Notes under the pieces: model-generated | What the model was told of the DNA's origin: nothing | Databases searched by the model: none | What the model saw: only the letters and a program-made list of their open reading frames with translations | Program-made: the position numbers and the translations under genes | Shown: one piece after another, positions 871 to 19,251 of the stretch | Layout: each line of letters starts with the position of its first letter | Numbering within the stretch: the stretch's first letter is position 1 | From: a virus | DNA: 20,390 bases | Direction: 5' to 3' (one strand) | Virus record (IMG/VR): IMGVR_UViG_3300001419_000079 | Span: 1 to 20,390 of that record

Positions 871-893
871 ATTATAACATGATTTCCGTTAAA
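871..893 (-). promoter_or_regulatory. Promoter of the common window type, for the partial gene at 836
   Basis: On the minus strand TTTAAC is followed after 11 bases by TATAAT (plus-strand ATTATA at 871-876), with TG just before the -10. This is one of ten sites sharing WTTAA and the identical spacing. The start codon is 35 bases downstream of the -10. Confidence 0.6.
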
Positions 894-913
894 GTTTGAC
901 TAAATCAGAGAGC

Positions 914-945
914 AAAAAAGGGCACCTAAATGAATAGATACCCTT
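914..945 (-). terminator. Rho-independent terminator after the capsid/small-protein cassette
   Basis: Read on the minus strand, AAGGGTATCT (945-936) can pair over 10 positions (two G-T wobbles) with AGGTGCCCTT (927-918). The loop is 8 bases, and a run of six T follows at 919-914. It lies 23 bases past the stop of the 76-residue gene and before the promoter of the next gene, the expected place for a terminator. Confidence 0.75.
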
Positions 946-968
946 ATTATAACAAACCATTGTTTAAT
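946..968 (-). promoter_or_regulatory. Promoter-like site abutting the terminator
   Basis: ATTAAA, 11 bases, TATAAT on the minus strand with TTTGT directly before the -10: an exact match to the shared promoter pattern. It overlaps the stop region of the 76-residue gene, and its predicted start point falls inside the 5' arm of the terminator hairpin at 914-945. It may be a real promoter for the gene at 836, in tandem with 871-893, or a degenerate relic. Confidence 0.4.
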
Positions 969-1198
969 TAACCACCAAACTCGTGACCAGCAACTCTTTT
1001 CATTTGTTTAGTAAATTCTTCGAATGAAGGCTTCTTTTTGTAAAGTTTAATAGAAATTTCATTTCTTTCTTTACCTTTGATACGCCATTTATATCCATCT
1101 GCTATATGGTCTGGGTCAGTAGTTTTTACAACTCTACGTTTGTAACCATCTTCCCATGTTTCAGATTTTTTCTCATTTAAAAATTCAGAAAATTTCAT
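968..1198 (-). CDS. Small protein (76 aa) with capsid-targeting-like N-terminus
   Basis: The product begins MKFSEFLNEKKSE, which resembles the T4 capsid-targeting peptide MKTYQEFIAE carried by internal head proteins. The rest is basic and compact (DGYKWRIKGKERNEISIKLY, ending AGHEFGG). From memory similar small proteins occur in marine T4-like phages, but I know no function. AAGG lies 9 bases before the ATG. It is the last gene of a five-gene run (capsid-like protein, then four small proteins) and is followed by a strong terminator. A role as a packaged head protein is inference from the N-terminus and the neighbours. No membrane segment or known enzyme motif is seen. Confidence 0.75.
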   Translation of the reverse strand: MKFSEFLNEKKSETWEDGYKRRVVKTTDPDHIADGYKWRIKGKERNEISIKLYKKKPSFEEFTKQMKRVAGHEFGG

Positions 1199-1208
1199 AA
1201 TAACAACC

Positions 1209-1859
1209 TTATTTTACTTTAGCAGCTAAATCAGCGTCAGCCTTACCCCAAGTACCAGAAGACATCGTAGCAAAAGAATTAACTCTCGCTAAACCCCATT
1301 GAATTGGAGTAGTTCCAGGTCGGTGACTTGTTTTCCAAGCAGCTACACCTCTATCAAATACTTGTTTTAAGATATTATATGGCATACCAGATTGTTCAGC
1401 TTTTTTCTTTAAAGCAGCCGTCGCGTCACCTTCATCAAGCTCAATTGTTTCAATTGATTCTTTTATAGCTTCTACTTCAGCTCCTTTAGGGAAGCCTTTA
1501 ACATTATCTTTAAATCCTAAAGCGTCCATCTTAGATCTAAACCAAATATCATCACATGTACGCAGTCTAGTAACCGGGCTTATATAACAAACAGTTGCTT
1601 TAACGTTATATGGTCCTATTTGAGTTAACTTATAGTTACGTTGAGTTCTGCGTGATTCATCGACTTCTTCAGTTTCACCAAACATTTGTTTGAACTTTTT
1701 AGTGTGTTTAGAAGGTTTAGTTTTAGCGGTTGCATCACCAGGTGCAGGTTTATATGCTTCGGGATCATCGTCATCCATTTTAGCTTGTTTGTTAAACTGT
1801 GCTTTTCTTTTAGCTAAAGTAGACTTTGAAAGTTCGTTTAATAGCTCTTTGAAAGACAT
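1209..1859 (-). CDS. DUF5824-like protein (216 aa) with capsid-targeting-like N-terminus
   Basis: I place the start at 1859, not 1886, because that ATG overlaps the upstream stop (TAATG) and has AAGGA about 9 bases before it. The product begins MSFKELLNELSKS. Residues about 10-60 are basic and low-complexity, with a DPEAYKPAPGDATAKTKPSK block and an MFGE segment. A middle part (about 70-140) follows. The C-terminal 70 residues (SGMPYNILKQVFDRGVAAW ... HRPGTTPIQWGLARVNSF) match what I remember as DUF5824, a domain of unknown function common in T4-like marine phages. The N-terminal peptide resembles a T4 capsid-targeting sequence, so packaging inside the head is possible. The mosaic build (targeting peptide, basic linker, DUF) is clear, but the activity is unknown. 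Confidence 0.8.
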   Translation of the reverse strand: MSFKELLNELSKSTLAKRKAQFNKQAKMDDDDPEAYKPAPGDATAKTKPSKHTKKFKQMFGETEEVDESRRTQRNYKLTQIGPYNVKATVCYISPVTRLRTCDDIWFRSKMDALGFKDNVKGFPKGAEVEAIKESIETIELDEGDATAALKKKAEQSGMPYNILKQVFDRGVAAWKTSHRPGTTPIQWGLARVNSFATMSSGTWGKADADLAAKVK

Positions 1860-2026
1860 TAGTCTGATTCCTTTTCGCCTTTCCAACCAGCATCAACTTC
1901 ATCAAAGAATTTCTTCTTAGTTTCAGCATCTAATTCAGATGGATTATCAACACCATATTTCTTTAGCATTTTAGCAAAAAACTCTTTGTAAGTTTCTTCT
2001 TCTTGTAAAAACTGTTTAAATTTCAT
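1859..2026 (-). CDS. Small acidic protein (55 aa) with capsid-targeting-like N-terminus
   Basis: Open from the ATG at 2026 to the TAA at 1861-1859. The product starts MKFKQFLQEEETYKEFFAK and ends WKGEKESD, with a predicted amphipathic helix in the first 25 residues and a short charged C-terminal half. AAAAGGATT lies just upstream of the ATG. Its stop shares a base with the next ATG (TAATG), so translation is probably coupled. The N-terminal nine residues follow the same M-K-F-x-x-F-L-x-E pattern as the neighbouring small proteins. No known family recognised. Position and N-terminus suggest a head-associated protein; this is inference. Confidence 0.7.
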   Translation of the reverse strand: MKFKQFLQEEETYKEFFAKMLKKYGVDNPSELDAETKKKFFDEVDAGWKGEKESD

Positions 2027-2038
2027 TTTGTAATCCTT

Positions 2039-2305
2039 TTAATCTACAATAAATACAGATTTGTTTTTAATTTTGATTGTAAAATCTTTTAAAAGATCTT
2101 TAATTTCTTCTTCTTCATATTTTTTAGCGAAGTCAATTTGCGTTCCAAAAGAAGTTGGAGTAACTAGTTTGATTTTGAAACCAGCTCCTCTAAGTATTTC
2201 TTCAGGTTTTTTCGCCTCTTGAATAGCTGAGGTTTTAGACTCAGCCAAGATTGTTTCGCTTTTTGCAATAACTTTTTCATCTTTAAGTATCTTTAAAAAG
2301 CCCAT
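2039..2305 (-). CDS. Small protein (88 aa) of the capsid cassette, unknown function
   Basis: Starts ATG at 2305, with GAGG seven bases upstream, 10 bases after the stop of the gp23-like gene. The first 30 residues are charged and helical (MGFLKILKDEKVIAKSETIL), with several hydrophobic-x-x-E stretches (TILAE, SAIQE) of the kind T4 prohead protease gp21 cleaves. The C-terminal half (about 38-88) looks like a small alpha/beta domain ending KNKSVFIVD. Possible roles are a scaffold or internal head component processed on maturation, or a partner of the capsid protein encoded just upstream. I recognise no family. Confidence 0.7.
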   Translation of the reverse strand: MGFLKILKDEKVIAKSETILAESKTSAIQEAKKPEEILRGAGFKIKLVTPTSFGTQIDFAKKYEEEEIKDLLKDFTIKIKNKSVFIVD

Positions 2306-2315
2306 TTTGAACCTC

Positions 2316-3176
2316 TTATACGTTAATGTCGAATTTGAACATCATCTCATTATCAGTTGCGTGTAATGGAGATGCAGTTACTGCAAATCTGTTATAGATG
2401 TGATATGTAGCTTCGCCAGAATCTGGATTAATTGCTTCAACAACTTCATCTCTATACGGCGAGAATACACCAGCTGATTTACTTGGGTTAGTAGTATCTA
2501 CTAAACCAACATAAGCTGTAATACTTGTAGCATCTGGATTCATAAAGATTTTAGTTTTACCAACTTTAGCCAAGAATAAACCAGACTCTTCAGCTTGATT
2601 CATAGCGGCAAATGCAGCACCAGCAATATATGGTACAACAACAAATGCTTCATATGTTCTTTGATTTAATGAGTTAGCTTTTAAAACTAGTTCGTGAGCT
2701 CTTTGAGTAACTTCTCTGTAGATAGTTGTAGCATTTGTGCTATCAGAAAGATCTAGATCAGCTTCATCTTTACATTCAGCTTCTAAGAAAGCTAATGTTG
2801 CGGTATTTTCTTGATCATTAGCTAATCCTCTTAAAAGAGTACCAATGATAGAGTCTGCTTCTTTACCGTGTTGTGATCTTAAATCTTGAATAGCTTCTTG
2901 AGAAATACCAGTGCTAATTGATTCACTGTTTTCTACTTCTACATCAGCTCTAACTAATTCAAAATCATTAGCTCCAGCCTTTTTTCTGATATTGAACAAT
3001 GCGGCCGTAGGACCATTCATTGGAATAACAGAAAAGATTTGTCTACCTAGTGATGGTAGCGCAGTTTGTTGATACATTACATTGACAGATAAATTCTCGT
3101 CAGTTGTTGCGATCTCCGGAGCGTTTGGAGTCGATGTATCTTCAATCAAATTTTGTTTGATATCGATATTTTCCAT
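2316..3176 (-). CDS. Compact gp23-fold (HK97) capsid protein, 286 aa
   Basis: Several blocks align by eye with T4 major capsid protein gp23. VIPMNGPTAALFNIR corresponds to the VQPMNSPTGQVFALR region. ISQEAIQDLRSQHGKEAD corresponds to TPELAQDLKAVHGLDAD. The segment from KIFMNPDATSITAYVGL to GVFSPYRD corresponds to KVYIDQYA ... GIYYAPYV. T4 gp23 is 521 and vertex protein gp24 427 residues. Here only about 25 residues separate the first two blocks, so the insertion domain is missing, and the N-terminal extension (about 35 residues) is short. It is not next to the usual head genes (20-21-22-23). It could be the main capsid protein of a divergent phage, a vertex protein or a second capsid-fold decoration protein. 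Two perfect late-promoter boxes lie upstream, and AAAAAAGGAAG is a strong ribosome-binding site. Confidence 0.8.
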   Translation of the reverse strand: MENIDIKQNLIEDTSTPNAPEIATTDENLSVNVMYQQTALPSLGRQIFSVIPMNGPTAALFNIRKKAGANDFELVRADVEVENSESISTGISQEAIQDLRSQHGKEADSIIGTLLRGLANDQENTATLAFLEAECKDEADLDLSDSTNATTIYREVTQRAHELVLKANSLNQRTYEAFVVVPYIAGAAFAAMNQAEESGLFLAKVGKTKIFMNPDATSITAYVGLVDTTNPSKSAGVFSPYRDEVVEAINPDSGEATYHIYNRFAVTASPLHATDNEMMFKFDINV

Positions 3177-3210
3177 AGTTATATCTTCCTTTTTTAAAAG
3201 TATTTTGTTT

Positions 3211-3226
3211 TATTTATATATTTATA
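3211..3226 (-). promoter_or_regulatory. Tandem T4-type late promoter boxes for the capsid cassette
   Basis: The minus strand carries TATAAATATATAAATA, i.e. two perfect, abutting copies of the T4 late promoter -10 box TATAAATA (3226-3219 and 3218-3211). The capsid gene starts 35 bases further on, and the previous gene ends at 3239, so the boxes fill the short gap. Late recognition by a gp55-like sigma factor is inferred from the T4 family. Confidence 0.75.
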
Positions 3227-3238
3227 TTGGAAGATTTA

Positions 3239-3916
3239 TTAAATATCTTGACTACAATGCGTCTTGAAGTCACACCAGTCGCACAATCTAGTTGGATTTT
3301 TTGCGTAGATCTCATCTTTTTCAACGTTATTAATAAGCTCCATAAGCTGACTAACATAGTTATCTAGATATTGACGTTCTAAGATAATATCATTTTCCAT
3401 ATCTTCATGTTCAACATAAACATATGCTATTTTAATTTTATCGATGTTTGGGTAACGCTGAAAGAAATATATTCCATAAAACATTAACTGATCGTATTCT
3501 TGCCATTTTGGATCTTTATATTTTCCAGATTTCCAATCAACGAGATGTAACGTGTCATCAATTGTAGTAATGAAATCTATAGAGCCTCTAAACAATGCTT
3601 CTTTATCAGAATATTTTGTAGGAGTTAATTCTTCGGTTAACCCAAAGTCAAATTCTCTAATACTATCTTGTGTTAGATATTTTTCACCTAAATGAGTACG
3701 TACAAACTTATCTACAATATGTTGATACTGCGGAGCAAGCTTATGACGTGCCGGTTCAGGATAATGCTCAATAATAGAATGAACAGCTCCACCTTTCAGT
3801 AGAGCCGTAATGTCCATTTTATCCTTAGGAGCCTTATCAATATAGTTGTACTTAAACTTGCGGTTACAAGATTTATGAGTAGCAATTTTACTAAATGAAT
3901 AAGGCTTAAATTTCAT
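3239..3916 (-). CDS. PD-(D/E)XK nuclease of the RecB/Cas4 type with Fe-S cysteines
   Basis: The order of motifs is that of the RecB/Cas4/AddB nuclease domain: GGAVHSIIE (H46), GSIDF (D114), LVDWKSGK (D127, K129) and YDQLMFYG (Q143, Y147). Cysteines at 17, 212, 215 and 221 (one N-terminal; the others C-x2-C-x5-C at the C-terminus) match the four-cysteine 4Fe-4S 'staple' seen in Cas4, AddB and Dna2. At 225 residues it is a stand-alone nuclease without helicase. It probably acts as a DNA exonuclease in recombination, repair or host DNA breakdown; the exact polarity cannot be told. It starts with ATG 2 bases after the DsbA-like gene's stop, so it is part of the replication operon. Confidence 0.85.
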   Translation of the reverse strand: MKFKPYSFSKIATHKSCNRKFKYNYIDKAPKDKMDITALLKGGAVHSIIEHYPEPARHKLAPQYQHIVDKFVRTHLGEKYLTQDSIREFDFGLTEELTPTKYSDKEALFRGSIDFITTIDDTLHLVDWKSGKYKDPKWQEYDQLMFYGIYFFQRYPNIDKIKIAYVYVEHEDMENDIILERQYLDNYVSQLMELINNVEKDEIYAKNPTRLCDWCDFKTHCSQDI

Positions 3917-3918
3917 AA

Positions 3919-4206
3919 CTATTTCGCTATTAGTTGGCCAATAGAATCATCGATATCTGTATTAGATTCCAACCATTCTTTGATAGTTTCTTCTTCAAAG
4001 ATTTCAGCATCTGATTTTTTCTTCTCAGCTTTGATCTTGTTTAGAATAGATGCGACTTTACCAGTAGGTACACCTTCTTCATTAAATTCTTCTTTAAGAG
4101 CTTTAATATCTTGATCCAATACTTTCTTTTGCATTTGAAGTTCTAGATACCTTTTAGTGAAATTTTCAATATTTTCTCTAGCTTCTTGTGATGATCTAAT
4201 TTCCAT
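3919..4206 (-). CDS. DsbA-like dsDNA-binding protein, 95 aa
   Basis: A short, highly charged, mostly helical protein. By eye its C-terminal two thirds resemble T4 DsbA (double-stranded DNA-binding, stimulates late transcription). Here FNEEGVPTGKVASILNKIKA then EIFEEETIKEWLE sits against DELGVDGKMFNRLLALYHK then DVFEAETEEVVELYD in T4. The arrangement of a coiled-coil helix, a short loop with GxPxGKV and a second helix also recalls GapR (DUF2312). In T4 dsbA neighbours rnh and gene 32, as here. The ATG follows AAAGGAAAG. The assignment is a weak-similarity inference, strengthened by synteny. Confidence 0.6.
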   Translation of the reverse strand: MEIRSSQEARENIENFTKRYLELQMQKKVLDQDIKALKEEFNEEGVPTGKVASILNKIKAEKKKSDAEIFEEETIKEWLESNTDIDDSIGQLIAK

Positions 4207-4223
4207 TCTTCTTTCCTTTTGTT

Positions 4224-4676
4224 TTATTTAAGTGCATCTTCAACGTACGCTTTGTATTCTTTATATCCGGCGTAATCGTTACAATTTACATATACGAATT
4301 CTGATGTAATTTTATCATTACCATCAAAATCTTTAAATGTAACTGGGTGGCTTAAGTTAAAAATAACACGATTTTTCTTATCGCTATATTTAACTGAGCT
4401 AATTTCATTCTTATTAATAAATCCATTACCATTAATTTGATAAATGTAATTTTCGATAAAAAATTCATTTTGTGATAATGCTAATAAATTATTTGAAAAA
4501 TCAACATGGTTGTGACTGTCCCAATATACATAATCACTGATTAACTTAGACTTTCCGTAGCTAGATATTTCAATGTTGTAATTGAGATTAAAAATAATTC
4601 TATTCCTATCTTCTAAAATATTGATATTAGATACGTTTTGTAAATTAACGATCCTATCTTTGGTTTGTAAAAACAA
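4224..4676 (-). CDS. Unknown protein (150 aa) with two internal repeats; TTG start
   Basis: No ATG fits. The start is TTG at 4676, with GGAGAAGG directly upstream, and the product reads MFLQTKDRIVNLQNVSN. The protein is built of two similar halves. Residues about 8-58 contain VSNINILEDRNRIIFNL then ISDYVYWD; residues about 86-136 contain ISSVKYSDKKNRVIFNL then TSEFVYVN. Each half looks like a small beta-rich unit, so the gene probably arose by internal duplication. No catalytic motif or membrane segment. A promoter of the common type sits at 4700-4722, so this gene heads its own transcript running into the DsbA-like and nuclease genes. Function unknown. Confidence 0.75.
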   Translation of the reverse strand: MFLQTKDRIVNLQNVSNINILEDRNRIIFNLNYNIEISSYGKSKLISDYVYWDSHNHVDFSNNLLALSQNEFFIENYIYQINGNGFINKNEISSVKYSDKKNRVIFNLSHPVTFKDFDGNDKITSEFVYVNCNDYAGYKEYKAYVEDALK

Positions 4677-4699
4677 TTGTCCTTCTCCTTATTGATATT

Positions 4700-4722
4700 A
4701 TTATAACAAGACTTTGTTTAAA
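4700..4722 (-). promoter_or_regulatory. Promoter of the common window type, for the duplicated-domain protein
   Basis: TTTAAA, 11 bases, TATAAT on the minus strand, with CTTGT before the -10. It overlaps the last codons of the primase gene, and the TTG start at 4676 lies 24 bases past the -10. Confidence 0.6.
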
Positions 4723-5716
4723 GTTTAGATTTAATTCGAACTTGAGCGGATATTCCGCTAAATATATTTTTTTGAATTATATCAGATACAACAATATCAC
4801 TATGGTTTAGCATTAGTTCATTCATATCTTTTTCAATGTACTTATCCGGTTGGATGTACACTTTATATTTCTTCGAATATTCTAAGCTATTTATTAAACC
4901 TGTTTTGTCATTATCAAGGACAAAGACTGGATGTTTTAATTCATTCAAACGATCATCTGGCATTTTAGCACCCATCAAAGCAATACTATTTGGTAGACCA
5001 CCAGCAATGGAATCAAAGATGCCTTCATAAATGAATACTGGTTGATCTTTATTGATATTGAACCAATTCCAAATTTTATAACCAATGTTTGCGTCATGCA
5101 TGTACGTATAGAATGTTTTATCTTTAATTGATCTTGAGTAGAAGCCATACATTTGTCCTTCAAAATATAAAGGAATAACGATAGCATCTGTGATCTTATA
5201 AAGAGTTTCACCAATTTTTAGATCTTGGAAACCAAAGTACCATTTACCAAATTTTGATTCCTTATATTCAAAACCACGACCTTTAAGATAATCTAGAGCT
5301 TCTGGAACTGTAGATATATCTTTAAGGTATGGAGTTAAATCATGAATGAGAACCTCTTTTTCTTTAGGTTCTTCAACAGTCTTTTTAAATGAACCGAATA
5401 CATCTTCAGTATCACCTTTAGCTAATTTAGCCATAGTGTTACCAAAGTTTTCGCGTTTGTATTGATTCAATAGAGCTGGGAAAAAATCTCTTAGAAATGA
5501 GTACACTGTTTTGTTATGTGCTGCGCAATCACCGTTAAAGCAATTGACATTAGTCACATTATTTTTGATGTACAAATGAAGTCTTTTCTTGTTTTTGTGA
5601 GTACGACTATCGCCGCATACTGGACAACGAGCTGTAATGTCAACATCAGATTCCTTTCCAATGTTGTCCATTCCAACCGCTAACTTGAAGTATTTAATAT
5701 CAAGTCTGTCTAACAT
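4718..5716 (-). CDS. 61: DNA primase, T4 gp61 / DnaG type (332 aa)
   Basis: Makes RNA primers for lagging-strand synthesis with the gp41-type helicase. The N-terminus holds a zinc-binding module CPVCGDSRTHKNKKRLHLYI ... CFNGDC (C31, C34, C59, C64). A TOPRIM catalytic core follows, with VFIYEGIFDSIAG (E231) and VFVLDNDKTG (D268, D270). T4 gp61 has 342 residues. I choose the second ATG (5716) because the first (5722) overlaps the AAGGAT ribosome-binding site, while the second is 5 bases from it. It sits 20 bases after RNase H in the replication operon. The zinc module plus TOPRIM make the assignment firm even though overall identity to T4 looks low. Confidence 0.9.
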   Translation of the reverse strand: MLDRLDIKYFKLAVGMDNIGKESDVDITARCPVCGDSRTHKNKKRLHLYIKNNVTNVNCFNGDCAAHNKTVYSFLRDFFPALLNQYKRENFGNTMAKLAKGDTEDVFGSFKKTVEEPKEKEVLIHDLTPYLKDISTVPEALDYLKGRGFEYKESKFGKWYFGFQDLKIGETLYKITDAIVIPLYFEGQMYGFYSRSIKDKTFYTYMHDANIGYKIWNWFNINKDQPVFIYEGIFDSIAGGLPNSIALMGAKMPDDRLNELKHPVFVLDNDKTGLINSLEYSKKYKVYIQPDKYIEKDMNELMLNHSDIVVSDIIQKNIFSGISAQVRIKSKL

Positions 5717-5736
5717 ATCCATCCTTCTTTATTTGG

Positions 5737-6840: not shown

Positions 6841-6857
6841 TATTATACCTCCTAGCT

Positions 6858-6873
6858 AAGGGGAGAACCCCTT
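6858..6873 (-). promoter_or_regulatory. GC-rich hairpin between gp32 and RNase H genes
   Basis: AAGGGG-TTCT-CCCCTT: a six-pair stem with a four-base loop that includes part of the gp32 stop codon and ends 8 bases before the AGGAGG of the RNase H gene. No T run follows, so it is more likely an mRNA 3'-end stabiliser, a partial terminator or a translation-modulating hairpin than a full terminator. Confidence 0.55.
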
Positions 6874-7813: not shown

Positions 7814-7879
7814 ATTATTTCCTTTTAGTCGATTATTTCGAATAGTTCATGTTTAAAGTCACATTGGACTTACCTCTAT

Positions 7880-7905: not shown

Positions 7906-7911
7906 GAGTAC

Positions 7912-7968
7912 CTGTTACTCATACAATAATTATAACAAATAGTTGATTAATAATTGTATGAATAACAG
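7912..7968. repeat. 21-base inverted repeat enclosing the gp32 promoter
   Basis: Arms at 7912-7932 and 7948-7968 are reverse complements at 19 of 21 positions, with a 15-base spacer. The -10 lies in one arm and spacer, and the WTTAA box at the other arm. RNA read through from the clamp gene would form a long hairpin; RNA started at the internal promoter would contain only the 3' arm. It may be an operator, an RNase III site or a cruciform. Confidence 0.7.
7929..7951 (-). promoter_or_regulatory. Promoter of the common window type, for gp32
   Basis: ATTAAT, 11 bases, TATAAT on the minus strand with TTTGT before the -10. Predicted start near 7922, giving a leader of about 110 bases that contains the pseudoknot and an A+T-rich, weakly structured stretch before the ATG. 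Confidence 0.65.
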
Positions 7969-7993
7969 AAGGAAATCTAAATTAAATTTCCTT
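7969..7993. terminator. Hairpin downstream of the clamp gene, weak terminator candidate
   Basis: AAGGAAAT, a 9-base loop, ATTTCCTT: a perfect eight-pair A+T-rich stem 13 bases after the clamp stop codon. On the minus strand no T run follows, so termination strength is doubtful. It directly abuts the 21-base inverted repeat. Confidence 0.4.
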
Positions 7994-8002
7994 ATGTATT
8001 TT

Positions 8003-8738: not shown

Positions 8739-8761
8739 ATTATATCCAATACTTTATTAAT
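8739..8761 (-). promoter_or_regulatory. Promoter of the common window type, for the sliding clamp
   Basis: ATTAAT, 11 bases, TATAAT on the minus strand, with TTGGA before the -10. The clamp ATG at 8710 is 28 bases past the -10, which also settles the choice of that start. Confidence 0.65.
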
Positions 8762-8767
8762 AATTGA

Positions 8768-9028
8768 TTAAAGAATGTACTCAGGGAAATCTTTTTTCAA
8801 TCTTTCAACATAATATTTGTAGTACTTTGAACTCTTAAAGTTTGTAATATCCTTGCCTTTTTCTAATTGCTCTAACATGCAATAAAATCTGGCATCTTCA
8901 CGACTATTATATAGTTGATTATCTTTCTTTTTAAATATTACATCAGCTGGAACAAGGTACCCATCACCGACTTCAACCACAGATATTACTGAGTTTCCGT
9001 CGATGATGAACTTTGTTTCAGGTTTCAT
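8768..9028 (-). CDS. Unknown protein (86 aa), translationally coupled to the actin-like ATPase
   Basis: Its ATG overlaps the stop of the actin-like gene (ATGA), and no clear ribosome-binding site of its own is seen, so translation is probably coupled. The N-terminal half reads as beta strands (TKFIIDGNSVISVVEVGDGYLVPADVIF). The C-terminal half is helical and basic (SSKYYKYYVERLKKDFPEYIL). In plasmids a ParM actin is encoded just upstream of its DNA-binding adaptor ParR; the position here is the same, but the sequence does not show an obvious ribbon-helix-helix, so a ParR role is speculation. Alternative: an unrelated replication accessory protein before the clamp gene. Confidence 0.75.
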   Translation of the reverse strand: MKPETKFIIDGNSVISVVEVGDGYLVPADVIFKKKDNQLYNSREDARFYCMLEQLEKGKDITNFKSSKYYKYYVERLKKDFPEYIL

Positions 9029-10012: not shown

Positions 10013-10035
10013 ATTATATCCAATAGTTAGTTAAT
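10013..10035 (-). promoter_or_regulatory. Promoter of the common window type, for the actin-like operon
   Basis: ATTAAC, 11 bases, TATAAT on the minus strand, with TTGGA before the -10, in the 61-base gap after the 106-residue gene. The ATG at 9981 is 32 bases past the -10. Confidence 0.65.
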
Positions 10036-10042: not shown

Positions 10043-10363
10043 TTAAAAATCGAAATTCTGTAACTCTTCAGCTACACTAACTGGTTTTTCCTCACGATGA
10101 ATTTGAGGAGGTTTAACAACTTCATTTGAAACTCCGCCAAAATCAGTATTTAGATCTAGTGTTTCTCCATTTCTAGACTTTGGTCGCGAAGTTTGATCGC
10201 TTTCATTAGTCTTTGGTGTCGTTTTAATTGACGTTTCTTCTCTTGTTTTGTTTCTATTAGAATTGCTATTGTCACCACCAGTAGTAACAACAGAGCTACC
10301 ATCGCTAAAATTAATGTGAAGTTCATCAATGTCCTTTGTACATTCTATATTTAATTTAAACAT
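10043..10363 (-). CDS. Unknown protein (106 aa) with clamp-binding-like C-terminal tail
   Basis: The N-terminal 30 residues look like a short beta domain (FKLNIECTKDIDELHINFSDG). The next 60 are hydrophilic, Ser/Thr/Asn-rich and probably disordered. The end is VAEELQNFDF. The preceding gene's product ends DEMQNLEF, so both share [DE]E-[LM]-Q-N-[FL]-[DE]-F. T4 DNA polymerase ends SLFDMFDF, the peptide that docks on the sliding clamp, and T4 gp33 and gp55 use comparable C-terminal tails. A clamp-tethered small protein is therefore a reasonable guess. The start overlaps the upstream stop (TAATG). No family recognised. Confidence 0.72.
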   Translation of the reverse strand: MFKLNIECTKDIDELHINFSDGSSVVTTGGDNSNSNRNKTREETSIKTTPKTNESDQTSRPKSRNGETLDLNTDFGGVSNEVVKPPQIHREEKPVSVAEELQNFDF

Positions 10364-10638
10364 TAGAATTCCAGATTTTGCATCTCATCAGGAATTTCCT
10401 TTGTAGGTCTTTCATCAGATCTAAAATTTGGGCCTTCTGGCGTAGTCTTTTGATTTAAATTAGTTGATTGCATTGGTGGAACCGGATCATCAAATGTAAT
10501 GTCATTGTCTTCATCTACCCTTGGTCGAATAGTGACATCTTCATTAACAGTCGAAACTTCACCATCTTCAAACTCAATATCGAATGTGATTTTCTTAACA
10601 TCTCTATTATTTGGTAAATCTTTAATCTCAATAATCAT
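10363..10638 (-). CDS. Unknown acidic protein (91 aa) with clamp-binding-like C-terminal tail
   Basis: I start it at the ATG at 10638 (AGGAAAGAA directly upstream) because the longer frame to 10707 would read through the promoter at 10664-10686. The N-terminal 40 residues resemble the same part of the following protein in being a short beta domain (VKKITFDIEFEDGEVSTV against ELHINFSDGSSVV). A proline-rich, charged linker then leads to the terminal DEMQNLEF. The two genes look like diverged tandem duplicates: beta domain, disordered linker, same tail. A role tied to the sliding clamp, for example a late-transcription or replication accessory factor, is inference. It is acidic and has no enzyme motif. 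Confidence 0.72.
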   Translation of the reverse strand: MIIEIKDLPNNRDVKKITFDIEFEDGEVSTVNEDVTIRPRVDEDNDITFDDPVPPMQSTNLNQKTTPEGPNFRSDERPTKEIPDEMQNLEF

Positions 10639-10663: not shown

Positions 10664-10686
10664 ATTATAACAAAAGATTGCTTAAA
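10664..10686 (-). promoter_or_regulatory. Promoter of the common window type, for the two small tail-motif genes
   Basis: TTTAAG, 11 bases, TATAAT on the minus strand with TTTGT before the -10. Its upstream end overlaps the stop of the 144-residue gene; the ATG at 10638 is 26 bases past the -10. Confidence 0.6.
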
Positions 10687-12495: not shown

Positions 12496-12510
12496 ATTTA
12501 ACCCCTTAAG

Positions 12511-12891: not shown

Positions 12892-12899
12892 ATCTCTCC

Positions 12900-13559
12900 T
12901 TAAATATTGAATTTAGAACTATAATCACCACGAATTTTAGGGCGTTTATATTTTCCATCTTCAAAGTACGGTGTTTCTGTGAATTTGATTAGTTGATCGT
13001 TCCCACGAAAAACTTTCCAATTCAGTTCTGCTTCAAATCTACCAGGTTCTGATAAATCCTTATTTCTTTCTAATAAAATTTGCTCTTTATCCAAAAAATT
13101 ATTAATCATTTTATTGGTCGCTAAACAAACTCTATATTTGTTGTTATAGTATTTACCCATATACCATACACGGCCAGGATAATCTTTCGTGATTGATTCA
13201 ATCTCTTCTCTATTTTTAACAGTAAAAAATACAGCATAATCAGATTTACGAGCTTCTTTTAATGGTTCATTTTCCACAAACTTTAATAGTGCTTTTGCGC
13301 CATTATCATTGTCACGTCTCAACAATAGATATTCTTCATTAGCTCTTAATGGCATTACGGTATTAACCATCCAACGAGACTCTGAATCAGTGGCTTTGTC
13401 ATAGTTAACCATTACTGGAGTTTCTTCTAGCTGGAAATACCAATCAAAAGGCGCTTTAACATTAATGAATTCTTTAAAATCTACACCATTATTTTTAAGT
13501 GCTTCTTTACATTCATTATAAAATTGTGTATCATAATATGGGTCAATAGTAATAAACAA
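12900..13559 (-). CDS. Unknown protein (219 aa); TTG start
   Basis: The frame upstream is closed by a stop 24 bases before, and no ATG is available. TTG at 13559 with AAAAGGAAA at a fair distance is the best start (product MFITIDPYYDTQFYNE). The protein is soluble, rich in aromatic and charged residues and of mixed alpha/beta pattern. Notable segments are DWYFQLEETPVMVNY, SDYAVFFTVKNREEIE, PGRVWYMGKYYNNKYRVC and the basic end YKRPKIRGDYSSKFNI. I see no catalytic signature. GATAAATA, one base from the late promoter box, lies at 13581-13588, so late expression is possible but uncertain. Function unknown. Confidence 0.75.
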   Translation of the reverse strand: MFITIDPYYDTQFYNECKEALKNNGVDFKEFINVKAPFDWYFQLEETPVMVNYDKATDSESRWMVNTVMPLRANEEYLLLRRDNDNGAKALLKFVENEPLKEARKSDYAVFFTVKNREEIESITKDYPGRVWYMGKYYNNKYRVCLATNKMINNFLDKEQILLERNKDLSEPGRFEAELNWKVFRGNDQLIKFTETPYFEDGKYKRPKIRGDYSSKFNI

Positions 13560-13592
13560 CGTTTTGTTTCCTTTTGTTTTTATTTATCAAAG

Positions 13593-13964
13593 TTAATGTA
13601 ACTCATAATCAACAACTTTAATAATAGCTAAATTATCTGAAACAATAACACCTTTAACTAAACCATATTGCCCTGGGTATTTAAAAAGATGATACAAATA
13701 AACACTATTTAACCAAGCTGTGTAAGTGGGAATAAACCAAAGTGTTAGAGCTGAAATAAGTAGTTTTTTATCTGTATTATTTTGTTTTATTGCGGATGTT
13801 CTCATTAAAATAAAATTAGTATATTCAATTTTACTCTTTTCATCTAATGAAATTAACTTTATTGATGCAACTAATCCTGTTAAAATAGTACTTACAAAAT
13901 TAATTATATATCCAAAAATAATATAAGAAATAATCATTTCACTAGAAAAATTAAAGAACTCCAT
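13593..13964 (-). CDS. Predicted inner-membrane protein (123 aa)
   Basis: The ATG directly follows the gp52 stop (TAAATG). Residues about 10-38 (IISYIIFGYIINFVSTILTG and beyond) form one long hydrophobic segment. A second lies at about 69-90 (LLISALTLWFIPTYTAWLNS). A charged loop with several lysines separates them. The C-terminal 30 residues are hydrophilic to mixed. This is a two-span membrane protein with no signal cleavage site evident. It may remodel the host membrane or, by position next to the topoisomerase genes, relate to membrane-attached replication, but that is guesswork. No family recognised. Confidence 0.72.
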   Translation of the reverse strand: MEFFNFSSEMIISYIIFGYIINFVSTILTGLVASIKLISLDEKSKIEYTNFILMRTSAIKQNNTDKKLLISALTLWFIPTYTAWLNSVYLYHLFKYPGQYGLVKGVIVSDNLAIIKVVDYELH

Positions 13965-15272
13965 TTAAAGCTCCTCAATCCAAAGTTGTTCAATAGATTT
14001 CTTAAGTAGTTCATCCAATTTAGATTTGCTTACTTTGATATCATCTTGAAGCTTTGCCATACGTTCTTCAGTCAGTGAAAGAATATTCATATTCAATAGG
14101 TAATCATAAGAACCATCTTTTTGAATAATCTCTGTTACATTGTCAAGATCTTTTTCAATATCAGCTTTTTTACGTTTAGCAACTTTTAGTTTATCTTCAA
14201 CAATCATTTTAATGAATAGATATTTAGAAAAGTCAAACCTAATTTGTTCATCTAACTTGGCAGCAACATTATCTTTACGATCACTCATATAAGATAGTTT
14301 TACTTGGATGTAATGATCTATGATTTCTTTAGCACCATCAAATACTTTGATTTTGTTATTCTCATCGATAACAGTATAGTTTTCTGATACCTTTTTAACT
14401 AGCTTAAGTTTAACAAGCAATTCATCTTCAGACCATTGCTTTAGTAGCTTACTTGGAATAGTAACTTCAAAGTTGAAATTATCATCTTCAGATTTATCTT
14501 TGTAAGATTGAATAATCTTCTTATCTTCCAAGTCATCAAGAACATTGATATAACTTTTTAAGTTATAACCAATCGGTACTTCAGTAATTTCTACTTTGTT
14601 GACACCTTTAGTTTTTACTACACCTTTGATTAACCATTGAGCACTATGTTCACCTTGTTCAATAGTACCACCAAAGCCGTTGTAAAATGGTTCAAAACCA
14701 TAACGAGGAGACTTACCTTCAAGTGTTGATTTGATGTAGTTTGTAATCTTAGCTGGATCACGTGGTAAAATCTTTTGGGCAAAACCAGATGATACACCTT
14801 CACTTCCATTAACTAATAGTATAGGTAATGAAGGAACATAGAACATTGGTTCAATTTGTTGTCCTTCAAAGAATTGATGCTTAAGGATAGCAGTATCTTC
14901 TTTCTTGAACAATTCAAAGAATTCAGGAGTACCATAAGTGTAGATATACCTTGATGCTGAAGCTTCTTGAGAGAACCTTGTACCAAAGTTACCTTTTTTC
15001 TGTAGTAGTGGAACGTTGTTTGTACCTGGGAAATCTTGTCCAAGGTTAACAATAACACCATCAAGACTGCCATGTAGATATTCAGCAAACTCAGCTACCT
15101 TTGAACCAAGTTGAGATACCTTAATTTTATCTTTAATGTTTTTCTCAAGGATTGTGTATAGAATTTTACGTGAACCGTTTTTCTGACCATCAACCAAAGA
15201 AGCAATCTTACGTAAGTTATCATAAGATGCTTGGTCAACGTAATCCTTATTAAAAAATTCTGATATTTTCAT
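13965..15272 (-). CDS. 52: DNA topoisomerase II medium subunit, T4 gp52 type (435 aa)
   Basis: DNA breakage-reunion subunit, equivalent to GyrA/ParC. The catalytic arginine-tyrosine pair is in EASASRYIYT (R108-Y109), preceded by the GNFGTRFSQ stretch. Upstream are DGQKNGSRKILYT (the winged-helix DNA-binding region) and EFAEYLHGSLDGVIVNLGQ. Downstream the GSEGVSSGFAQKILP and GFGGTIEQG segments match type IIA cores, and the C-terminal third (about 330-425) is a long coiled-coil arm. Length is close to T4 gp52 (442), with no GyrA-type C-terminal wrapping domain. AAAGGG precedes the ATG, and a promoter of the common type is at 15301-15323, so it can be expressed apart from gp39. Confidence 0.95.
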   Translation of the reverse strand: MKISEFFNKDYVDQASYDNLRKIASLVDGQKNGSRKILYTILEKNIKDKIKVSQLGSKVAEFAEYLHGSLDGVIVNLGQDFPGTNNVPLLQKKGNFGTRFSQEASASRYIYTYGTPEFFELFKKEDTAILKHQFFEGQQIEPMFYVPSLPILLVNGSEGVSSGFAQKILPRDPAKITNYIKSTLEGKSPRYGFEPFYNGFGGTIEQGEHSAQWLIKGVVKTKGVNKVEITEVPIGYNLKSYINVLDDLEDKKIIQSYKDKSEDDNFNFEVTIPSKLLKQWSEDELLVKLKLVKKVSENYTVIDENNKIKVFDGAKEIIDHYIQVKLSYMSDRKDNVAAKLDEQIRFDFSKYLFIKMIVEDKLKVAKRKKADIEKDLDNVTEIIQKDGSYDYLLNMNILSLTEERMAKLQDDIKVSKSKLDELLKKSIEQLWIEEL

Positions 15273-15300
15273 TTGAACCCTTTGTTTAATTTATAGTACT

Positions 15301-15323
15301 ATTATATCAAGTATTTCGTTAAA
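15301..15323 (-). promoter_or_regulatory. Promoter of the common window type, for gp52
   Basis: TTTAAC, 11 bases, TATAAT on the minus strand, with CTTGA before the -10. The gp52 ATG at 15272 is 28 bases past the -10. A TTTACT sits where a sigma-70 -35 would be. Confidence 0.65.
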
Positions 15324-15348
15324 AGTAAATAAAATAATGAATAATATT

Positions 15349-15364
15349 CTGCACTAATGTGCAG
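15349..15364. repeat. Perfect hairpin CTGCAC-TAAT-GTGCAG in the gp39-gp52 gap
   Basis: A six-pair perfect inverted repeat with a four-base loop, 45 bases after the gp39 stop. No T run follows on the minus strand; a short TTTAATT follows on the plus strand. GTGCAC occurs again nearby at 15391-15396. It may be a weak terminator, an mRNA-processing hairpin or a protein site. Confidence 0.5.
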
Positions 15365-15408
15365 TTTAATTGGGTGTTTTGAGCATTTATGTGCACGACA
15401 GATCAGTA

Positions 15409-17208
15409 TTACAATTTAGCAATACTGAAGTCGTTATCAAGAATGTATTTTTTACGAGGTTCCGAATCATCACCAAGCCATTCATCAATAATCTTATCGT
15501 TATCAAACTCAAGGATGTTAATCATTTTAGCTAATCCATCAGCTTTAACAACTTCCTTAAGATCATCGCTATCCCATGAACCTAAACCTTTGTAGTAGTT
15601 TGAATGTTCACCAGCTTTTAGTTTTACTTCATCACTAAGGTTATAATACCAAGATATCAATTTATCTTTCTTAGTAACACCAATAACTGGAGTTTGAAGC
15701 ATACCAATTTTACCTTTAAGCTCAGGTAAGTATTTCACAAAGAATCCAGTCAATAGACCTCTAATATGATAACCATCCAAGTCTTGGTCAGTAGCATAAA
15801 TGATGTATTGGTAATCTTCATTTTGAATGATCTTATAAAGCTCAGATAATTCTTTGTTTGCGGTGAACTTAGATTGTGCTGCACTATAAGCATTCAATGG
15901 TTTACCTTTAAGAGTATAATAACCACATTCTTTACGACCAAGAACTGGAGATAAACCACCAAGTGCTGATTCACCTTCAACAAGTAGTAGATATTTCTTA
16001 ACACCAATGCTTGGTAGATACTTATCAGACTTAATCTTCTTAACAGTTTTTTGTAGACCTCTTAGTTCTTGACGCTTTTTGAACTCTTCCTTAATTCTAT
16101 AAACTTCAGTGATAGGATCAATGATGTCTTTATTACGGAAGATTTTATTAACGATTTGATCAAATGGAATATCACCAAAGTACTCATTAATTTCAGCAGT
16201 ACCATTAGTAATCTTTTCTTTTGATTGTGAATTGAACTTTGTATTCTTTACATTCTTAAGGAATGCAACAACCATTAATTTGTTTTTGATATCACCAGGT
16301 TTGATAGTCTTGAACTTTTTAGCAAGCTTATCCCTAAGACCCGATACAACATTGTGAACAATAATGTCAATGTGTGTACCACCATCAGGAATTTTAAGAC
16401 CATTTACATAACTGAACTGACGAAAATCATCAGCTTCATTTGGAAGGATAGCAAATTTGTAATCCTCAGTTTCATAAATTTCAGAGCTGTCAGTAAACAG
16501 GCTGATGTATTTTTTGAATGAGTTTACATTAATTTTCTTACCATTGAACTTGAATGTAAGCTCAGGGAAAGACATAGATAAGTTGATTAGTCTTTGATAG
16601 ATAACATTCATATGTACAGTATCAATAGCTTCTAAGCCAAACTTAGGTAGATCAGGCCAGAATTTTACATTAACTCCAGTTTTACCTTTTGCTTCATCAA
16701 CTTTATCAGTAAATGATGCGGCATTATCTTTGAATGTGATAGTGTAAGATTGTGAACCATCATTAGTTTTACCAACGAACTTCTTAGAGAAACAGTTAGT
16801 AGCAAATGAACCAACACCATTCATACCAATTTGAGTACGATTTTTATCATCATCAAAGTTTGAACCAGCTCTGGCATGACCCCAAGCTAATTCAGCTAGG
16901 TGGTGTCCATCAACATTTTTTTGAACAGGAATACCTGTACCATTGTCAATAACCTCAACAGTATCATCAGTCATTTTAACTGAGATTTCATTACAACCTT
17001 TGAAGTTTGTTTTGATTGCGACATCGACAGAGTTATCAATGATCTCGTTAATGATTTTGATTAGACCAGGTACGAAAGAAATTTCTTTGTACTGGATTTT
17101 GTTATCTTCAAAAACATATTCACTAGATTTAGTAAGGTCAACAGCACCAATGTACATTGATGGTCGTTGAATAATATGTTCTCTTTCGGAAAGTTTACGT
17201 ATGCTCAT
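15409..17208 (-). CDS. 39: DNA topoisomerase II large subunit, T4 gp39+gp60 in one chain (599 aa)
   Basis: ATPase and TOPRIM subunit, equivalent to GyrB/ParE. GHKL ATP-binding motifs: INEIIDNSVD (E55, N59), VIDNGTGIPV (D88, G90) and IGMNGVGSFATN (128-137), then the transducer with QSKEK. TOPRIM motifs: LLLVEGESALGG (E411) and YATDQDLDGYHIRG (D474, D476, D478), plus KGKPLNA and YYKGLGSW. In T4 this sequence is divided between genes 39 and 60, with a translational bypass in gene 60. Here it is one uninterrupted frame, as in many T4 relatives. GCAAAAAGGATAGAA precedes the ATG, and a promoter lies at 17238-17266. Confidence 0.96.
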   Translation of the reverse strand: MSIRKLSEREHIIQRPSMYIGAVDLTKSSEYVFEDNKIQYKEISFVPGLIKIINEIIDNSVDVAIKTNFKGCNEISVKMTDDTVEVIDNGTGIPVQKNVDGHHLAELAWGHARAGSNFDDDKNRTQIGMNGVGSFATNCFSKKFVGKTNDGSQSYTITFKDNAASFTDKVDEAKGKTGVNVKFWPDLPKFGLEAIDTVHMNVIYQRLINLSMSFPELTFKFNGKKINVNSFKKYISLFTDSSEIYETEDYKFAILPNEADDFRQFSYVNGLKIPDGGTHIDIIVHNVVSGLRDKLAKKFKTIKPGDIKNKLMVVAFLKNVKNTKFNSQSKEKITNGTAEINEYFGDIPFDQIVNKIFRNKDIIDPITEVYRIKEEFKKRQELRGLQKTVKKIKSDKYLPSIGVKKYLLLVEGESALGGLSPVLGRKECGYYTLKGKPLNAYSAAQSKFTANKELSELYKIIQNEDYQYIIYATDQDLDGYHIRGLLTGFFVKYLPELKGKIGMLQTPVIGVTKKDKLISWYYNLSDEVKLKAGEHSNYYKGLGSWDSDDLKEVVKADGLAKMINILEFDNDKIIDEWLGDDSEPRKKYILDNDFSIAKL

Positions 17209-17237
17209 TTCTATCCTTTTTGCTATTTGACTGTTCT

Positions 17238-17266
17238 ATTATATCAAGTCTTTTACTATTTGTAAA
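17238..17266 (-). promoter_or_regulatory. Sigma-70-like promoter for the topoisomerase large subunit
   Basis: On the minus strand TTTACA, 17 bases, TATAAT, with GACTTGA before the -10. It has the same extended -10 as the other sites but lacks the WTTAA box and instead has a good -35. The -10 overlaps the stop codon of the 66-residue gene. Confidence 0.6.
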
Positions 17267-17439
17267 CGGTTTTTTTCAATTTCTTTTAACTTCATTTTAA
17301 TGTCATCAAGTCTATGAACAAACAATTTATTGTCAACATAAGATTGCGAAATACCAGATTCAAATGCTTTCTTCTCGTATTCATCAATATAATTATCTAT
17401 CTTCGTGATTAACTTGTTTATTGGATTTTTATTTATCAT
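17239..17439 (-). CDS. Small coiled-coil protein (66 aa)
   Basis: I start it at the ATG at 17439, which has GGAGAGG 6 bases upstream; the ATG at 17454 overlaps that site. It overlaps the end of the previous gene by 11 bases. The product is almost wholly helical and strongly charged (ITKIDNYIDEYEKKAFESG, then HRLDDIKMKLKEIEKNRLQI), with heptad-like spacing in the second half that suggests a dimeric coiled coil. No family recognised. It precedes the topoisomerase gene, whose promoter overlaps its 3' end. Confidence 0.65.
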   Translation of the reverse strand: MINKNPINKLITKIDNYIDEYEKKAFESGISQSYVDNKLFVHRLDDIKMKLKEIEKNRLQIVKDLI

Positions 17440-17626
17440 TTTGAGCCTCTCCATCTCTTAATGGATTGTAATCAGATTTACCAAAGATGAAATCTAAAAC
17501 TTGTTCTTTAATAACTGGTTGAGCCATCTTAGCTTTTCTTTCGCTAGATTCTTTTTGCGCTTTGTAGAGAGCTTCTTGGCCTTTTCTTGTTATCTCGTCA
17601 TTTTCTTTGTTAACATCTGTTTTCAT
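17429..17626 (-). CDS. Small charged protein (65 aa), unknown
   Basis: ATG at 17626, with AAAAAGGACC upstream and a promoter of the common type at 17654-17676. The N-terminal 35 residues form a charged helix (ENDEITRKGQEALYKAQKES). The C-terminal part contains IKEQVLDFIFGKSDYNPLRD and an acidic end. The gene is the first of the leftward run that includes the topoisomerase and overlaps the next gene by 11 bases. No family recognised; the pattern fits a small DNA- or protein-binding accessory factor, but nothing specific can be claimed. Confidence 0.65.
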   Translation of the reverse strand: MKTDVNKENDEITRKGQEALYKAQKESSERKAKMAQPVIKEQVLDFIFGKSDYNPLRDGEAQNDK

Positions 17627-17653
17627 TTAGGTCCTTTTTGATATATTTGAATA

Positions 17654-17676
17654 ATTATATCAAGTCCTTTATTAAA
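17654..17676 (-). promoter_or_regulatory. Promoter of the common window type, start of the topoisomerase run
   Basis: TTTAAT, 11 bases, TATAAT on the minus strand with CTTGA before the -10. It lies in the divergent gap that also holds the late promoter of gp15 at 17689-17696 on the other strand. Confidence 0.6.
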
Positions 17677-17688
17677 GAATGATTAAAA

Positions 17689-17696
17689 TATAAATA
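17689..17696 (+). promoter_or_regulatory. T4-type late promoter for gp15
   Basis: A perfect TATAAATA on the plus strand, 25 bases before the gp15 ATG, in a non-coding gap. This is the canonical late -10 box read by a gp55-type sigma factor with clamp activation, as expected for a structural gene. Confidence 0.75.
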
Positions 17697-17721
17697 ATAA
17701 CAAAAGTAAGTAGGAAATCAT

Positions 17722-18714
17722 ATGATTCATCACGGAACTATAAGAAAATATACCGCTGCACTCCTAGACTTATTTAATGGAATAGAGATCCAGTACGAAG
17801 ATAGTAATGGAACTACATTAAGTAGAAATATTCCAATTAAGTACAGTTCAAGAGAAAAGGCTAAGATTCTTGACGATTATACTTCAGAGCAATTGTTTTC
17901 CGGTAATACTAACGTATTACCTAGAGCCAATCTCGCAATGAGTACAATGGTAAAAGCAGATTCAAGAATTCAAAACAAAAATTTAAAAATTGCAAAAATC
18001 AAGACTGATGATACGTTTGAATATATGTATAATTCAGTTCCATACGAATTTACATTCGAATTAACTTTCCAATGTAGAGGTATGAATGAAGCTTCTCAAA
18101 TTGTAGAACAAATTGCTCCTAAATTTAATCCAACAGTTAATATAGACGTTTGGGATGTTTCAAATTTAGATGAACCAACAAGAGTTCCAGTTAAGCTTTT
18201 AGATATTGGTTTTGAAACTGAAGAATATGACGATGTTTCATCTAACATTGTTATGATTAATATTGGTCTTTCTATAATGGGTAATTTATATCCACCGATT
18301 AAATCAAGTGGTCGAATTAAAGAATTCAAAATGTACGTTAATGAACAACAAGGTAATTTCTTTAATAAGAAATCTATTCTAGGTTGGGACGTAGACGACA
18401 ATGGCGAATTGACAAACTCTAATATGACACAAGTAACTGATACGGTTACATATGCACCATCATTAATTAGTATTAACTCTGAGAATACCGTTCAAGTTGG
18501 ATTAAATAATCTAGTATTGATTTATGAAGACAAGGATAATAAGTTATCTGAGTTGACTTTTGAATGGGATGTTATAAGTGGAAGTGCCGTAGTTGTTGGT
18601 GATTTAGATACTGCTGAATTAACAGTTTCTGCAGTTGGTGATGTAGAAGTGCAAGTTACAATTACCGATGCATTTGGTAATTATAACTCACTTTCAAAAA
18701 CATTTACAATTTAG
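17722..18714 (+). CDS. 15: Tail sheath stabiliser / tail completion protein, T4 gp15 type, with an added C-terminal Ig/PKD-like domain (330 aa)
   Basis: Residues 1-210 match T4 gp15, the terminal hexamer that caps the contracted-tail machinery and joins it to the neck: IRKYTAALLDLFNGIEIQ (T4 FRRYATLMGDLFSNIQIK), NVLPRANLAMSTM, SQIVEQIAPKFNPTVN (T4 FQIVEQILPYFQPHFN) and MGNLYPPIK (T4 NGWMYPPVD). T4 gp15 has 272 residues. Here about 90 extra residues (roughly 245-330) form a predicted beta sandwich (LTFEWDVISGSAVVV, then VEVQVTITDAFGNY) like Ig or PKD domains that decorate phage virions. AGTAGGAAA precedes the ATG. It is the only plus-strand gene, away from the other tail genes, with its own late promoter. 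Its stop overlaps that of the convergent Sm-like gene. Confidence 0.85.
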   Translation: MIHHGTIRKYTAALLDLFNGIEIQYEDSNGTTLSRNIPIKYSSREKAKILDDYTSEQLFSGNTNVLPRANLAMSTMVKADSRIQNKNLKIAKIKTDDTFEYMYNSVPYEFTFELTFQCRGMNEASQIVEQIAPKFNPTVNIDVWDVSNLDEPTRVPVKLLDIGFETEEYDDVSSNIVMINIGLSIMGNLYPPIKSSGRIKEFKMYVNEQQGNFFNKKSILGWDVDDNGELTNSNMTQVTDTVTYAPSLISINSENTVQVGLNNLVLIYEDKDNKLSELTFEWDVISGSAVVVGDLDTAELTVSAVGDVEVQVTITDAFGNYNSLSKTFTI

Positions 18715-19010
18715 ATAATAATTTTTGATTTTTCCTGGATTTCGATACCAGTGGTTGCTTTTAAATAAGCTTTTTCGATTTCTGGGAAATCTTCTAATGG
18801 TGAACTCCATATAACATTCATTGGATGAATCTGCACAGCACCTGGGCCATTACCTAGATCCAAAATACCGTAAGGCATAATGTTACCTTCTTTTGCTTGA
18901 TATGGTTGCTTAATCAAAATTTCCTGACCATTAGCACTTTCAACTCCTTCCATATTACCAAAGATAATTTCTCCAGTAATTAACTTAATAACCTTCTTTA
19001 CGTTTGCCAT
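18711..19010 (-). CDS. Sm/LSm-like fold small protein (99 aa)
   Basis: The N-terminus KKVIKLITGEIIFGNMEGVE has the pattern of an Sm1 strand pair (h-x-h-x-G-x-x-h-x-G), followed by EILIKQPYQ and, near residue 60, VQIHPMNVIW. Small Sm-like proteins of about 100 residues with a K-L-I-T-G-E start are frequent in T4-like cyanophages and other marine phages, as I remember them; a role in RNA binding is suspected but not shown to my knowledge. AAGGAAAAAC precedes the ATG. It converges with gp15 and the two stop codons overlap, so antisense transcription between a late and an earlier gene is possible. Confidence 0.7.
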   Translation of the reverse strand: MANVKKVIKLITGEIIFGNMEGVESANGQEILIKQPYQAKEGNIMPYGILDLGNGPGAVQIHPMNVIWSSPLEDFPEIEKAYLKATTGIEIQEKSKIII

Positions 19011-19024
19011 GTTTTTCCTTCGTT

Positions 19025-19204
19025 TTAGTTTTTGTATTTACTATCTGTGCACTCTTCACAATTCAGAATTTTATGTGCCTTACATTTTTTACCTTTTTCA
19101 AGATGCTTTGGTCTTTTAACTAAATCTAGTTTTGTATCTACGGTTGCAATATCGGCAGATGTAGTTTCTTCTTTTAGTTTATTTAGATACTTCTTAAACT
19201 TCAT
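19025..19204 (-). CDS. Small cysteine-containing protein (59 aa) with capsid-targeting-like N-terminus
   Basis: Open from the ATG at 19204 to the TAA at 19027-19025. It begins MKFKKYLNKLKEE, like the small proteins of the capsid cassette far to the left. The C-terminal third, KKCKAHKILNCEEC, holds three cysteines and a histidine (C-x2-H-x4-C-x2-C) that could bind zinc. AAGGAAGTCAC lies before the ATG, and a promoter-like site is at 19229-19251. It is basic overall. No family recognised. Either a packaged head protein or a small zinc-binding nucleic-acid protein would fit. Confidence 0.68.
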   Translation of the reverse strand: MKFKKYLNKLKEETTSADIATVDTKLDLVKRPKHLEKGKKCKAHKILNCEECTDSKYKN

Positions 19205-19228
19205 TGTGACTTCCTTAGTATTGATTTT

Positions 19229-19251
19229 ATTATACTATATATTTATTTAAT
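19229..19251 (-). promoter_or_regulatory. Promoter-like site before the 59-residue gene
   Basis: ATTAAA, 11 bases, TATAAT on the minus strand, so box and spacing fit the common pattern. The bases before the -10 (TATAG) lack the usual TTG. The same stretch also contains AATAAATA, one base off the late box, so its timing class is ambiguous. Confidence 0.45.

Follow-up and report, generated by a model that had tools for sequence, protein, structure and literature searches.

The 20.4-kb viral record IMGVR_UViG_3300001419_000079 (positions 1 to 20,390, hereafter the window) carries on its minus strand ten copies of a two-part element, WTTAA-N12-TATAAT, in which a short box stands exactly 12 bases ahead of a -10 hexamer. 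This class of sites, as defined by its motif, its geometry and its conservation, is real, phage-specific and promoter-like. On balance, we favour the view that all ten act as phage promoters and belong to a single regulatory class, the counterpart of the middle promoters of phage T4, in a branch of the T4 superfamily that lacks MotA. An earlier examination of this DNA, made from its letters alone (the sequence-only reading), had listed the sites, and their coordinates and 12-base spacing are all borne out.

The window derives from a T4-superfamily phage, has 32% G+C and bears nearly all of its genes on the minus strand. These include gp39, gp52, PhoH, an MreB/ParM-like protein, gp45, gp32, RNase H, primase, a RecB-like nuclease and a helicase-like gene. 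Among named phages, the Vibrio phages Va1 and pv27 come closest, with 53-56% identity for gp39 and PhoH; for gp39, Campylobacter phages such as CP20 and CP220 are also near (54%). Closer relatives in IMG/VR include the 205-kb contig G001, with 85% identity in gp39. The ten sites greatly exceed what base composition would produce, as dinucleotide shuffles yield 0.40 sites on average (maximum 3 in 100) and an order-3 Markov model of the window gene strand yields 0.08 (maximum 2). Spacing is equally restricted, with ten counts at 12 bases on the gene strand and 0-2 at each other spacing from 0 to 40. One extra match on the plus strand (18256-18278) falls within coding sequence and looks like background.

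The same element emerges from a relative when no motif is supplied. An unseeded expectation-maximisation search of the regions upstream of 309 called G001 genes, with the window left out, gave as its best motif AtTTaAanaAA.ttgTGtTATAAT, with approximately 50 sites among those genes. When the resulting matrix was scanned on the window, the ten sites scored 15.9-22.3 and the eleventh 12.8, and a single site on the opposite strand scored above 9. A motif search with chance controls had been set beforehand as a test that could refute the class; the class survives it, and the matrix derived from G001 ranks the same ten sites at the top. Moreover, genes that have a site in the window carry TTAA-N11/12-TATAAT in 37 of 71 orthologous upstream regions of relatives, whereas the box is present in 2 of 75 such regions for window genes without a site (Fisher p = 1.8e-12). 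The orthologous regions have 34 counts at a spacing of exactly 12 and 0-4 at any other, although G001 as a whole uses both 12 (24 sites) and 11 (11 sites). Box and -10 persist while spacer and flanks diverge, most clearly upstream of the gene for a protein we call p150. Because the first W is lost at some orthologues (GTTAA, CTTAA), the core of the box is TTAA.

Several features of the sites given by the sequence-only reading can be refined. When aligned, the ten sites read (A/T)TTAAnnAAnnnnTTGnTATAAT. The WTTAA box is real but longer than claimed, with a further AA three and four bases downstream of TTAA, giving TTAAnnAA. The reported TG or GG within four bases before the -10 is present at nine sites, of which seven form an extended -10 (TGnTATAAT) and two read GGA; site 19229..19251 is the sole one without either. 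Proximity to gene starts also stands, but the count is eight rather than seven, these ending 23-34 bases before the start codon, while the two others (that of gp32 and the second site of the helicase-like gene) end farther off. TTGACA-like hexamers at 16-18 bases are not in excess in the window or in the upstream regions of G001, and thus there is no canonical -35.

The proposed resemblance to T4 middle promoters, in which a Mot box precedes the -10 by N11-13 (PMC1524935), holds for placement, since the geometry is fixed and the sites stand before replication genes. The Mot box itself is absent: a scan that shows a clear Mot peak in T4 gave no GCTT/TGCTT peak (-30 to -27) in the window, G001 or Va1. 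Likewise, the suggestion that a MotA homologue with changed specificity binds the box found no support in searches covering the window, G001 and the complete genomes of Va1 and CP20. No MotA N- or C-domain was recovered there by Pfam profile, none was recovered by a profile built from five MotA proteins, and AsiA was not found in any of the four. Elsewhere, KVP40 and Aeh1 have retained AsiA although no partner for it is known there (PMC1524935).

The family is also not genome-specific, as had been proposed, but occurs across the lineage. Counts of WTTAA-N12-TATAAT on the gene strand and the other strand are 24 and 0 in G001, 12 and 2 in both Va1 and pv27, 39 and 12 in CP20, 42 and 12 in CP220, and 18 and 4 in NCTC12673, against Markov expectations of 0.5 for G001, 0.9 for Va1, 3.8 for CP20 and 3.3 for NCTC12673. 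Control phages are not enriched when both strands are pooled (T4 2, RB49 2, KVP40 0, S-PM2 1, HTVC008M 1); these five T4-like phages, which lack the motif, also have neither p150 nor p219, a second protein considered below. In Campylobacter phages the box reads TTTAAG, and it is repeated 11 bp upstream at 23 of 44 CP20 sites, whereas doubling at offset 11 is seen at 1 of 35 sites in G001 and 1 of 16 in Va1. A tandem half-site in the window looked suggestive as well (four of ten sites at 11 bp), but offsets 12 and 13 have three sites each and the arrangement is absent from G001 and Va1, so the idea was dropped. Five NCTC12673 sites coincide with promoters annotated in GenBank (NC_015464), four of them labelled 'extended -10'. 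An RNA-seq study of NCTC 12673 describes two new A/T-rich promoter motifs that drive most transcription (Sacher 2018, PMC6024767), with which the WTTAA-N12 sites may be identical.

Va1 places the class among others. Its TTAA-N11/12-TATAAT sites lie upstream of thioredoxin, gp44, gp41, the MreB-like gene, gp45, gp32 and p150, and also of helicase, nrdB, GroES, GroEL and nuclease genes. A separate class in Va1, GTTTAC-N17-TATAAT, is T4-early-like and stands mostly before unannotated genes; such a -35 at 17 bases occurs at no more than one site in the window and in G001. The late-type motif TATAAATA lies upstream of structural genes in Va1 and of capsid, portal and tail genes in G001, which encodes a gp55-like sigma factor. 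No gene of the window or G001 has both TATAAATA and the TTAA box, indicating separate sets. The TTAA class therefore stands apart from the late motif in both Va1 and G001, and in Va1 from the early motif as well. Given this separation, and its position before replication and nucleotide-metabolism genes in Va1, the class resembles T4 middle promoters.

How might such promoters be read? We envisage that the host's RNA polymerase, carrying the main sigma factor, would recognise TATAAT, and that within the window's clade the extended -10 would assist it. The box lies nearer to the -10 than ordinary sigma region 4 contact allows, and it is kept in Va1, where TGn is found at 0 of 14 TTAA-N12 sites. 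From these two facts we infer an activator, most likely an early product of the phage itself, that would bind the DNA over TTAAnnAA, between about -28 and -21. At that distance, which is the distance of MotA on the Mot box, it could substitute for the -35 contact. Replication, topoisomerase, clamp, single-stranded-DNA-binding and nucleotide genes would be switched on by this activator, and structural genes would be held until gp55 and TATAAATA come into use. A role for the sites in vivo, their timing and the activator itself belong to this model, in which an activator other than a MotA homologue seems to us the best reading. Probably, a phage protein that replaces MotA helps read the TTAA promoters ahead of DNA-replication genes in this branch of T4-related phages, which come from marine, Vibrio and Campylobacter hosts.

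Two window proteins are candidates for this function. The gene for p150 encodes two similar halves, and its structural model is confident (predicted local distance difference test 93, predicted TM-score 0.84). In the PDB it is best matched by 3d6w, a LytTR DNA-binding domain (E 3e-3, probability 1.00, TM-score 0.41/0.52, root-mean-square deviation 9.1). p150 is found in phages of the window's clade and of the Va1 type, tracking the single-box promoters, and the five controls lack it. The box is retained in front of p150 itself, at exactly 12 bases in eight of nine p150 loci. We tentatively suggest that this compact, duplicated LytTR-like protein might bind TTAAnnAA, activate both its own gene and those for replication, and replace MotA and AsiA by an unrelated fold. 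In a profile comparison, p150 matches MotA with a probability of ≤0.2%. The weaker candidate, p219, is present in every motif-bearing genome tested and absent from the five controls, and it follows gp52 after one small gene, much as motA does in the T4 gene order. As a relative of MotA, p219 was rejected, given a low-confidence model that matches no MotA structure and a profile-profile probability of ≤0.2%. Among genes annotated 'transcriptional regulator', a pair in CP20 proved to encode radical SAM proteins, and one in Va1 has no clear domain.

A number of observations weigh against this model. RB49 and KVP40 do without either box, and the division into promoter classes rests on mechanical gene calls. 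No clear early class was recognised in G001, where many small genes, too, have TTAA sites upstream; the class there may accordingly be early as well as middle. In the window's clade the extended -10 alone could suffice. As for p150, its match to the Pfam LytTR family is below threshold (E about 0.1; 13.1 bits against a cut-off of 22.6) and is seen for only two of ten members, its charge is near-neutral, and Campylobacter phages, which have a different box, lack it.

The alternative that we take most seriously, although we consider it doubtful, dispenses with an activator. The sites would be early promoters at which host sigma-70 holoenzyme reads an extended -10 together with an A+T-rich upstream element, TTAA serving to tune DNA shape or sigma contact. 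Campylobacter provides a precedent: a -35 is missing from the promoters of C. jejuni, in which T recurs periodically (PMC3847290), at -17, -27 and -38. The TGn at 7 of 10 window sites and 12 of 29 G001 sites would fit, as would the 'extended -10' annotations of NCTC12673 and a mild, two-fold excess of WTTAA at spacing 12 in C. jejuni 414 (40 against about 20 in 800 kb). However, Va1 has a Vibrio host and retains the box without TGn, alongside a separate early class that does possess a -35. Furthermore, TTAA at spacing 12 accompanies 22-48% of gene-strand TATAAT hexamers in the window and G001, against 3.4% in C. jejuni, and the doubled box occurs 11-28 times per Campylobacter phage compared with once in each of two Campylobacter genomes. 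It is improbable, in our estimation, that the phages borrow a host regulator instead, namely the essential OmpR-type CosR (HP1043 family, TTTAAG-5bp-TTTAAG) in Campylobacter phages and some other host activator elsewhere. The TTAA(G) repeats of CP20 do match the HP1043 consensus that overlaps the -35 region (PMC8345958), and no phage OmpR C-domain was found in the relatives searched. But G001 and Va1 show no such doubling and the window shows it only weakly, the position of the box is common to phages of differing hosts (Vibrio and Campylobacter among them), and the C. jejuni CosR footprint consensus differs (PMC3139631).

That MotA, with or without AsiA, has simply diverged beyond detection strikes us as very unlikely. 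The spacing equals that of T4 middle promoters and p219 is a lineage core protein in the place of motA, but neither the Pfam nor the five-MotA profile searches recovered either protein, and the comparisons of p219 and p150 with MotA described above argue the same way. Finally, an origin in chance is practically negligible, even in a window of 68% A+T with 37 TATAAT hexamers. As the sequence-only reading held, A+T richness does not explain the class: the shuffle and Markov controls, the G001 matrix and the recurrence of box, spacing and strand at orthologous genes all refute an origin in composition or chance.

Predicted promoter sites and candidate activator genes in the window, with the number of relatives that keep each site
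Feature	Position	Strand	Gene context	Kept in relatives
Promoter site TTTAA-N12-TATAAT (TGn), predicted	871..893	-	34 bases before helicase-like gene starting at 836	4/5; before orthologues in G001 and Va1
Promoter site ATTAA-N12-TATAAT (TGn), predicted	946..968	-	second site of helicase-like gene, 109 bases	
p150, candidate activator	4224..4676	-	150 aa, in two similar halves; predicted fold resembles LytTR	
Promoter site, predicted	4700..4722	-	23 bases before p150	8/10
Promoter site, predicted	7929..7951	-	115 bases before gp32 (single-stranded-DNA-binding protein)	5/11
Promoter site, predicted	8739..8761	-	28 bases before gp45 (sliding clamp)	5/8
Promoter site, predicted	10013..10035	-	31 bases before MreB/ParM-like gene	6/10
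Promoter site, predicted	10664..10686	-	25 bases before small acidic protein gene 10363-10638	2/7
p219, weaker candidate, core protein	12900..13559	-	downstream of gp52, as motA in T4	
Promoter site, predicted	15301..15323	-	28 bases before gp52 (topoisomerase small subunit)	3/8
Promoter site, predicted	17654..17676	-	27 bases before 65-aa gene, then 71-aa gene and gp39 (topoisomerase large subunit)	
Promoter site, predicted	19229..19251	-	24 bases before 59-aa gene	2/5

Some of the surrounding sequence has features of its own. The second site of the helicase-like gene runs straight into a hairpin that bears a run of T (AAGGGTATC...GGTGCCCTTTTTT, 912-951), and a transcript from that site would therefore begin inside a terminator-like element. 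The gp32 leader (about 7830-7860) contains a small AGUC-loop-GACU hairpin and then an A-rich stretch; this arrangement is kept, with a varying loop, in the relatives G001, G002, Va1, L130, L162, L165 and L167, and it is possibly a gp32 autoregulatory element. The adjoining small acidic proteins encoded at 10043-10363 and 10363-10638 have a common C-terminal tail (EMQNLEF, ELQNFDF; in relatives EMKDMEF, EMTNIEF), which might be a clamp-binding tail. A gene at 2316-3176 matches the major head protein family and sits among replication genes, with two adjacent late-type TATAAATA motifs upstream of it at 3211-3226. Lastly, an unseeded motif search of Va1 picked out no promoter but a coding sequence for a common C-terminal tail: roughly 40-70 small Va1 genes end in (H/Y)PE.(F/L)I-stop, and an 86-aa window protein (8768-9028) has a similar tail.

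Several T4-related phages are without MotA, and the lineage described here has a sharp, conserved middle-type box. With a cultured Vibrio phage, Va1, that displays apparent early, middle and late classes, and with two named candidate proteins, control of the middle phase becomes testable. The element also gives annotators a usable rule for locating promoters in marine, Vibrio and Campylobacter phages, which are now annotated by the -35/-10 patterns of E. coli.

Among known systems, the TTAA class does not match T4 late promoters, which consist of TATAAATA with no upstream box and are read by gp55, nor T4 early promoters with their GTTTAC-like -35 at 17 bases. It shares TGnTATAAT with extended -10 sigma-70 promoters at seven window sites, but here an extra box is added at a fixed distance. 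In HP1043 and CosR sites of Helicobacter and Campylobacter, TTTAAG recurs with an 11-bp period across the -35 region, as it does in Campylobacter phages; these proteins are host regulators, however, and the sites of the window's clade and of Vibrio phages are single-boxed with no clear repeat. NCTC 12673 belongs to the same lineage as the window and has 18 gene-strand sites, although its TTTAAG box is often doubled with an 11-bp period. The predicted fold of p150 is closest to the DNA-binding domain of LytTR regulators such as AgrA and ComE, from which this putative DNA-binding protein differs in its weak sequence match, its internal duplication and the lack of a receiver domain. The closest parallel is with T4 middle promoters, which likewise place a box 11-13 bases before TATAAT, near -30, with no -35, ahead of replication genes and apart from the early and late classes. 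The T4 box reads TGCTTtA, whereas the box here is TTAAnnAA, held in the window at a single spacing of 12.

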